A DNA stretch of 42,855 bases from the NCBI GenBank assembly GCA_943325035.2, contig CALPNW020000004.1, forward strand, positions 1-42,855, given 5' to 3'. Below are positions 19,491 to 34,955 of this stretch, piece by piece. A model generated the notes under the pieces. It searched no databases. It was not told the DNA's origin and was given only the letters and a program-made list of their open reading frames with translations. Position numbers and translations under genes: made by a program. Numbering within the stretch: the first letter of the stretch is position 1; each line of letters begins with the position of its first letter. Source of the DNA: Sphingobacterium thalpophilum (GTDB lineage Bacteria; Bacteroidota; Bacteroidia; Chitinophagales; Chitinophagaceae).

Positions 19491-19531
19491 CTAAAAAGGA
19501 TTGATATCTTATCATCTACTTGAATCAAAAA

Positions 19532-20968
19532 ATGAAAGAAATGAAAAAAAATAAATTAGTCATCTTCTCCTTTTTATTACTGACGCTCTCTGCCTGCCAG
19601 AAAGTGATGGATATTAAGGAAACCGATTTCATCGGTGGCGACGTTGCATTGAAAACGGTTGCCAATAATGAGCAGGGTATCATTGGTGCTTATGCAGGAA
19701 TGAACGTAGAAATGGGCATTTTGCTGAACAGTGTTTTCTCTGATGAAGTAAAAGTGGCAGAATTCTATAATGCGGCTACTGTTCACGAGTGGCAATATGC
19801 ATCTACTGATATTTCAATCAGAGATAGCTACACTGCATTTAACCTTTATTACAGAATCATCGACCGGGTTAACCGTGTTTTACAGGCATTGCCTGGTGTA
19901 GCTGCAACAACTCCTGCAGAAACTGCATTGAAAAACCGTTTAACCGGCGAAGCATTGTTCCTGAGAGCTTATTGTCATTTTGAGTTATACAGATATTACA
20001 GCAACAGTGCTGTATCTTCTGATCTGGCAATGGCTTATATGGAAACACCTTCATTGGCTCCTACTTCAAGGATTACCGTGGGCCCTTACTTTATTAAATT
20101 AAAGGCGGACTTAGCTGCTGCTAAGCCTTTATTGCCAACAGCATTAACGGACATTTACAGAGCTACTGCTCCTGCCGCTGCTGCATTACAGGCAAGAGTT
20201 GCTTTGTACCAGAAAGAATATGCCAATGCAATTGGGTTCAGTACAGAATACATTAATGCTATTCCTTTGGCTGCAGCTGCTTCATTTGCAGGTATCTGGA
20301 CAGGTGCCAACAGCACTGAGGTTGCTTTTAAATTAAGCCGTACTGCTTCTGTTGGTGGTAAAATAGGTTCATTGTACAGAGGTACTTCTGCAAGTGCTTC
20401 TAATATCGGTACTGTAACCTGGAAGCCATCCGACAAATTATGGAACAGTTACGATCAGGTAACTGATGTTCGTTTTGCTGCTTATTTTAAATCAGAACCA
20501 TTGTTGAATGTTCCTGGTCGTGATCCAAAGCTGATCAATAAATACGCCGGTGGTGCTTATGGCACTTCAACCGAAAATCTTGCTGATGCAGTTGTTTTCA
20601 GAACTGGTGAGCAATACCTGATCCGTGCCGAAGCTAAGGCTGAAGGTGCTGACCTGGTAGGTGCTGCTGCAGATTTAAATGCACTGAGAGCTGCGCGTAT
20701 CACAGGATACGTTAATGCTACTTTTGCAACTAAAGATCAGCTGATCACTGCTATCATGGATGAGCGTTTCAAAGAACTGCCTTTTGAAGGTCACCGTTTC
20801 TTTGATCTGAAAAGAAGAAATTTACCGGTAAGCCGTTTGGCTGCTGACGCTCCAAATGCAGCTGCCATGACGCTTTCTGCTGGTAATTTCCGGTTCTTAT
20901 TACCTATACCTAACGTTGAAATACAGGCCAACCCTGTTATTCAGCAGAATGCAGGATATACCAACTAA
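19532..20968 (+). CDS. RagB/SusD-family lipoprotein (pair 3)
   Basis: Lipobox LSACQK; FRTGEQYLIRAEAKAEG; DERFKELPFEGHRFFDLKRRN; FRFLLPIPNVEIQANPVIQQNAGY. ORF listed from a TTG at 19520; ATG 19532 or 19541 more likely. Confidence 0.93.
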   Translation: MKEMKKNKLVIFSFLLLTLSACQKVMDIKETDFIGGDVALKTVANNEQGIIGAYAGMNVEMGILLNSVFSDEVKVAEFYNAATVHEWQYASTDISIRDSYTAFNLYYRIIDRVNRVLQALPGVAATTPAETALKNRLTGEALFLRAYCHFELYRYYSNSAVSSDLAMAYMETPSLAPTSRITVGPYFIKLKADLAAAKPLLPTALTDIYRATAPAAAALQARVALYQKEYANAIGFSTEYINAIPLAAAASFAGIWTGANSTEVAFKLSRTASVGGKIGSLYRGTSASASNIGTVTWKPSDKLWNSYDQVTDVRFAAYFKSEPLLNVPGRDPKLINKYAGGAYGTSTENLADAVVFRTGEQYLIRAEAKAEGADLVGAAADLNALRAARITGYVNATFATKDQLITAIMDERFKELPFEGHRFFDLKRRNLPVSRLAADAPNAAAMTLSAGNFRFLLPIPNVEIQANPVIQQNAGYTN

Positions 20969-20987: not shown

Positions 20988-21022
20988 AAAAGGGGCTATA
21001 CAATTTGTATAGCCCCTTTTTT
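20988..21022. terminator. Strong, possibly bidirectional terminator between convergent genes
   Basis: AAAAGGGGCTATACAA T TTGTATAGCCCCTTTT then TT; near-perfect palindrome with A-tract and T-tract. Confidence 0.9.
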
Positions 21023-21050
21023 ATGGGTAGATCTTTTCGGTATTATTATT

Positions 21051-21163
21051 CTATACTGCTGCGAGTTATTTCAATATAGCTTCTAGTTAGTTGAATGCAG
21101 TTGCGAGTTATTTCAATACAGCTTCGAGTTATTTGAATGCAGTTGAGAGTTATTTCAATACAG
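21051..21163. repeat. 21-bp tandem array overlapping the 3' end and stop codon of the TlpA-like gene
   Basis: Units: CTGCGAGTTATTTCAATATAG (21059), CTTCTAGTTAGTTGAATGCAG (21080), TTGCGAGTTATTTCAATACAG (21101), CTTCGAGTTATTTGAATGCAG (21122), TTGAGAGTTATTTCAATACAG (21143); partial copy at 21051-21058. Confidence 0.93.
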
Positions 21164-22292
21164 CTGCAAGTTTTTGTTCCAGTTCAGCTCCTCTTAAACC
21201 GGTAGCGATGATCTTTCCCTGAGGGTCTATCAGTACATTAAAAGGGATTGCATCAAACTGATAAAGAGATGGCATAGTGCTTTGCCATTGCTTCAGGTCA
21301 CTAACCTGTTTCCAGTTCAACCGATCATCTTTAATGGCCTTCAGCCAGTCTTCCTTATCACTATCGAGTGATACGCCGAGTATGGTAAAATTTTTGTTCT
21401 TATACTTGTTAAATGCAGCAACTACTGCAGGATTTTCTCCCCTGCAAGGGCCGCACCAGCTGGCCCAGAAGTCTACCAGCACATATTTTCCTTTTAAGCT
21501 GCTCAATAAAAATGGCTGATCATTCACATCCGGCAAACTGATTTCCGGAGCCTGCTGGTTTAGTAAGGCATATCCTTTTGGCTCAGGGGCCTGTTGAGGT
21601 GCTGCGCTGGTTGCGTTCACCATTGCTTTGATCTTAGATAAACCGGTATGTTCTTTAAATAATTCAGCAGACTCATTCACCAGTACTTTCAGTTCATCCG
21701 GGTTCATTGTTCTGGATGCCATTCCCAGTGCATAATAACGCGCTGCCGGGCTCTTACTCTCCTTAATGAAGGTTCGTACCGAAGTGTTCATGTTTTTGAT
21801 CTGTAGCTCACGGTCTGCTTTTACCAGATTCAGCACACTGTCTGTACCGGGTTGTTTTTGCAGGGTATCAATTTTCTGGAAGATGGCATACAATACTGAA
21901 TCCTGGTTGCGGTAATTTTCGAAAAGGGTATGCAGACTTTCGGAGGCCGCAGATCCGGTGATCTTATACGCTCTGTATTGATTAGCATCCATAGCTACTT
22001 CAATATAGTCGTTGTCGTTCACCAGCAAAACATCCGGACCGTTCTCGAGTACCAGGCGATACAATCCTTCTTCACGGGCTACTCCCTTCAGGGAGAATTT
22101 GCCGTCTTTTTCCAGCCTACCCGAATCGAGTATAATGGGTTGCTCAGCACCAAACGGGAGCTCCTGTAAAAACAATTTTGAGGTCACTGCATTTTTAATG
22201 GTACCGGTTACTGTAAAGCCACCGTACTTTTTTTGTTTGCAGGCCGTAAGCAGAATACCTGTGCTGAGCAGCAGGAATACAATTTTTTTCAT
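21150..22292 (-). CDS. TlpA-like thiol-disulfide oxidoreductase lipoprotein with DUF4369-like N-terminus
   Basis: Lipobox LLTACKQK; N-terminal FTVTGTIKNAVTSKLFLQELPFG; thioredoxin motif VDFWASWCGPCRGENP. Confidence 0.9.
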   Translation of the reverse strand: MKKIVFLLLSTGILLTACKQKKYGGFTVTGTIKNAVTSKLFLQELPFGAEQPIILDSGRLEKDGKFSLKGVAREEGLYRLVLENGPDVLLVNDNDYIEVAMDANQYRAYKITGSAASESLHTLFENYRNQDSVLYAIFQKIDTLQKQPGTDSVLNLVKADRELQIKNMNTSVRTFIKESKSPAARYYALGMASRTMNPDELKVLVNESAELFKEHTGLSKIKAMVNATSAAPQQAPEPKGYALLNQQAPEISLPDVNDQPFLLSSLKGKYVLVDFWASWCGPCRGENPAVVAAFNKYKNKNFTILGVSLDSDKEDWLKAIKDDRLNWKQVSDLKQWQSTMPSLYQFDAIPFNVLIDPQGKIIATGLRGAELEQKLAAVLK

Positions 22293-34841: not shown

Positions 34842-34955
34842 CAACCCTGCGCTGATTCAACTAATCCGTGCCTATTAAATTCCGCAGTGTTGATTCAACT
34901 ACCCTGCGCAGGTTAAACTACCCTGCGCTGATACAACTTACCGGTACCAGTTAAA
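34842..34955. repeat. 19-bp degenerate tandem array overlapping the 3' end and stop codon of the MBL-fold gene
   Basis: Six units: CAACCCTGCGCTGATTCAA (34842), CTAATCCGTGCCTATTAAA (34861), TTCCGCAGTGTTGATTCAA (34880), CTACCCTGCGCAGGTTAAA (34899), CTACCCTGCGCTGATACAA (34918), CTTACCGGTACCAGTTAAA (34937). Confidence 0.85.

Follow-up and report, generated by a model that had tools for sequence, protein, structure and literature searches.

A 21-base tandem array across the stop codon of a TlpA-type gene in Sphingobacterium thalpophilum, probably a neutral minisatellite of one lineage

The window, i.e. the whole stretch of 42,855 nucleotides of Sphingobacterium thalpophilum DNA that was analysed, contains a TlpA-type gene whose 3' end runs into a tandem array of 21-base units, each derived from the end of its coding sequence, stop included. 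We consider that this array is most probably (at a probability of roughly 0.8) a neutral, lineage-specific minisatellite produced by tandem duplication across the TlpA-type stop codon. It sits between this gene and a convergent SusD gene, in a spacer that also holds a hairpin. The features of the region are as follows.

19520-20968, plus strand: SusD/RagB-family gene, the convergent neighbour (open reading frame, Pfam).
20988-21022 (about), no strand assigned: terminator-like hairpin, symmetric, with a 15-bp stem (RNA fold and sequence).
21047-21066 (approximate by a few bases), minus strand: degenerate last unit of the array, CTCGCAGCAGTATAGAATAA, frame lost (sequence).
21049-21172, minus strand: the array, about six units, a 21-base minisatellite with a 42-base higher-order period (Tandem Repeats Finder, distances between units).
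21150-21152, minus strand: TAA, the real stop codon of the TlpA-type gene (position as in orthologues).
21150-22292, minus strand: TlpA-type thioredoxin-domain gene (open reading frame, Pfam DUF4369 and AhpC-TSA/Thioredoxin_8, homologues).

Tandem Repeats Finder counts 5.9 copies of the 21-base unit in the array and proposes a second solution, at 21060-21172, with a period of 42 and 91% matches. With at most 3 mismatches allowed, the window holds 5 matches to the unit pattern; shuffling predicts 0.11, and none of the shuffles gave five, so that the array exceeds chance. The comparison of the units shows a two-step pattern, in which A and B types alternate as A-B-A-B-A followed by one degenerate A-like unit. 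The A-type units (0, 2 and 4) differ from one another by 2-3 bases of 21 and the B-type units (1 and 3) by 2 bases, while 5-7 differences of 21 separate the A-type from the B-type.

Unit 0 corresponds to the last seven codons of the TlpA-type gene, and translation in the frame of this gene gives ...EQKLAAVLK*LSTAFK*LEAVLK*LATAFN*LEAILK*LAAV*. The TAA of the gene recurs each 21 bases through the next four units, which makes five in-frame TAAs in all. The sixth unit, CTCGCAGCAGTATAGAA-TAA, carries a one-base deletion and has TAG in place of TTG; this TAG comes at codon 5, two codons early, and the TAA of the unit itself is out of frame. Tandem Repeats Finder and the translation thus agree with the preliminary description of a 21-bp array of repeated gene endings with in-frame stops, and the array, its period and its frame stand as first reported. 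The 42-base alternation of A and B units had been missed, and the statement that every unit keeps a stop at the same position is right for the five TAA units and wrong for the sixth. An open frame that crosses the array in minus-strand direction was rejected as a gene; such a frame is expected when the repeated unit lacks a stop in the frame concerned.

We looked for the origin of the array in the orthologues of the gene. Homologues were present in all 36 same-genus genomes searched, and the 3' end could be read at 28 orthologous loci, all in congeneric species. The position at which the protein ends is about the same in these 28, two of which share the exact KLAAVLK terminus, and the array is found in none, the end being followed by ordinary spacer or by a hairpin. 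The closest species compared, with a protein 78% identical, has the same end codon and no array. Therefore, the end of the gene is ancestral and the array is new in this lineage, and the earlier proposal that a coding 3' end was amplified into the spacer is borne out; the array grew from the ancestral coding end. In the same spacer downstream of the orthologous gene, other species (L022 and L028) carry different short repeats (TTGATAATTGACAATTGATAATT; CTCACTTCTCACTCC), which suggest an independent birth of arrays at one place.

A mobile or dispersed repeat that landed by chance at the TlpA-type stop codon would leave copies away from gene ends, the observation that the preliminary description had named as refuting its own reading. 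Such copies were looked for in the genome, in relatives and in sequence collections, and there were none: no further copy of the unit occurs in this genome (about 90% complete), nor was it found in 100 relatives, phages, plasmids or viral contigs. Considering also that the ancestral coding end itself forms unit 0, we regard this origin as extremely unlikely. A single exact match among the genomes of 84,980 species (L049) spans the 3' end of an acyltransferase-like gene in another organism; no array is present there, and the match was dismissed as chance. All these collections may lack entries from the species of the window.

The neutral minisatellite could have arisen as follows. A 21-base segment spanning the TlpA-type stop codon would have been duplicated in tandem, presumably by slippage or short-homology recombination, as known from minisatellites in general; divergence of the two copies would have given the A and B types, after which a second duplication would have copied the 42-base A-B pair as a whole. 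Any tandem duplication across a stop leaves the protein unchanged, because the upstream copy still gives the last codons and the stop, and the array thus adds length only to the untranslated part of the spacer that separates the convergent genes. Duplications would be tolerated at such a place since there is no promoter, start or ribosome-binding site to damage. The repeated in-frame stops would be a passive outcome, as the length of the copied segment is a multiple of three.

We then surveyed 1.68 Mb of this genome, with a single threshold set and with gene calls that were simple longest open frames, so that some edges are blurred, and obtained 20 tandem arrays in spacers. Twelve of these 20 lie between convergent genes, compared to 19% of the spacer bases (binomial p 5e-5). 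In the same way, 13 of 22 non-coding arrays have a stop codon no more than five bases away, while random placement gives 5.05 ± 1.98 and 0 of 2000 trials reach 13. The window itself contains a second example, located in another convergent spacer and starting 5 bases downstream of a stop codon; its sequence is unrelated to that of the 21-base array.

34844-34938, no strand assigned: second spacer array, period 19, 5 diverged copies (Tandem Repeats Finder).

The location bias is common to arrays of unrelated sequence. Against a null of mock arrays made from the genome's own spacers, 6 of 120 pairs of arrays scored as sharing unit sequence, the number expected by chance, and the arrays are therefore not one dispersed family; a small excess of shared sequence in a first test, in which p <= 0.05 was reached by 8 of 66 pairs, vanished under this null. 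In the closest relative, 1 spacer array was found in 306 kb, a sample too small for a comparison of densities. Among the spacer arrays of the survey, the top-scoring one is a 29/14-base array (AAAAGTGAACACATAAAAAATCAACACAT) at L091:686-820, which fills a convergent spacer ahead of a terminator-like hairpin. Additionally, a 63-base unit in 2.4 copies with 97% identity was observed inside an open frame at L119:12860-13009.

Several arrays of the survey start inside the last codons of a gene and repeat its stop.

L102:6710-6785: stop-repeating array, 21-base period.
L123:12943-13020: stop-repeating array, 24-base period.
L117:9160-9219: stop-repeating array, 25-base period.
L078:14263-14349: stop-repeating array, 20-base period.

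The arrays at L102, L117 and L123 are missing from the orthologues too, in one case with a protein 94% identical; the gene at L123 has few relatives, so that its comparison carries little weight. At L117:9209-9928, the ABC ATPase gene extends about 15 residues beyond the point where most same-genus orthologues end, and the array begins at the new stop.

These sister arrays bear on the question of whether the stops are repeated for a purpose. Selection might keep the in-frame TAAs as back-up stops, limiting the extension after read-through or loss of a stop to seven residues, and indeed the five full units all keep TAA in frame and the periods at L102 and L123 are also divisible by three. The sister periods of 20 and 25, which occur beside 21 and 24, show in turn that keeping the frame is unnecessary, and one unit at L102 has changed TAA to CAA. 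Within the array, the variable columns are evenly distributed over the codon positions, and the probability that three stop columns are invariant by chance is 0.21. Taken together, the even distribution of changes, this value of 0.21, the sister periods not divisible by three and the lost stop imply that no selection is needed to account for the frame and the stops. As the orthologues manage without the array and a single nearby stop would suffice, a role as back-up stops is, in our opinion, very unlikely. The preliminary description had taken length, frame and stop to be kept; as a feature of the array, this is not supported by the same data, nor by a last unit that has lost its frame.

The hairpin lies about 25 bases past the array, where a strong terminator had been announced at about 30 bp, and has an A-tract on one side and a T-tract on the other. 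Judged from its sequence, it is terminator-like and seems placed to end both convergent transcripts; it is absent from the output of a simple terminator scan. The RNA folding of the array itself is no better than that of shuffles on either strand (z 0.60 and −0.75). A longer stretch containing the array and the hairpin reaches a fold z of −3.69, which is due to the hairpin beyond the array. No Rfam match above the gathering score was obtained anywhere in the window.

The array could also act as a regulatory or stabilising 3' untranslated element, or as a series of protein-binding sites about two helical turns apart, affecting mRNA decay or colliding polymerases. The 21-base spacing, the position between convergent genes ahead of a strong hairpin and the similar placement of other arrays are in line with this idea. 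On the other hand, the folding at the level of shuffles, the lack of an Rfam match, the lack of shared sequence between arrays and the existence of the locus without the array in relatives make such a function improbable. REP and BIME clusters likewise occur between genes, after stop codons, but they consist of palindromic units in many dispersed copies, whereas the unit described here is not palindromic, as seen from the same fold z values, and is confined to this site.

The strong excess in convergent spacers among unrelated sequences may be accounted for in another way, by a mutational hotspot in which the duplications result from colliding polymerases or from supercoiling between convergent genes, the bias coming from mutation and not from tolerance. 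The excess could reflect such a hotspot as well as relaxed selection; since relaxed selection in promoterless spacers explains the same bias, we hold the hotspot to be unlikely. It concerns the origin of the array and is compatible with an array without function. In its broader form, convergent gene ends would in this lineage be a birthplace of minisatellites, where transcription collision or replication-transcription conflict duplicates stop-spanning segments of about 20-25 bases and gives 3'-spacer arrays with a fast turnover, a proposal that we likewise consider doubtful.

By its structure, a head-to-tail series of short units that include the gene's stop, and by its absence from related lineages in the comparison between species, the array may be classed with the known stop-overlapping tandem repeats. 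In Yersinia pestis, 10 of 88 variable loci are stop-codon-overlapping VNTRs, with motifs of 8-41 bases, most of 16-19 (Table 2 of PMC3689786). Like the array, they consist of short tandem units that contain the stop and run into the spacer, and their authors stated that they should affect the protein little (PMC3689786). The sequences differ, and variation of the copy number between strains has been shown for the Y. pestis loci (PMC3689786), whereas the present array was compared between species. The diversity of these Y. pestis loci is lower than their authors expected and was read as a possible constraint (PMC3689786), a point that speaks against the neutral minisatellite. In Mycobacterium tuberculosis, VNTR3239 is formed by tandem repeats in the rnc-fpg1 spacer (PMC2734929) and is, like our array, a lineage-restricted array that fills a spacer, this spacer being only a few bases in relatives (PMC2734929). 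VNTR3239, however, lies upstream of a gene whose expression is correlated with the length of the array (PMC2734929), while the array described here lies between convergent 3' ends.

A genome-wide preference of tandem arrays for convergent 3' ends was not found described in the titles and abstracts of the part of the literature covered. Taken alone, the array is of little significance. The genome-wide pattern is somewhat more useful: this small genome has about 12 young arrays at the 3' ends of its genes, unrelated to each other and with a clear bias towards convergent spacers, and none of those looked up in sister species is present there. This pattern would point to a simple rule, namely that a stop codon can be spanned by a tandem duplication without harm, and makes such arrays candidate markers for strain typing in this lineage.
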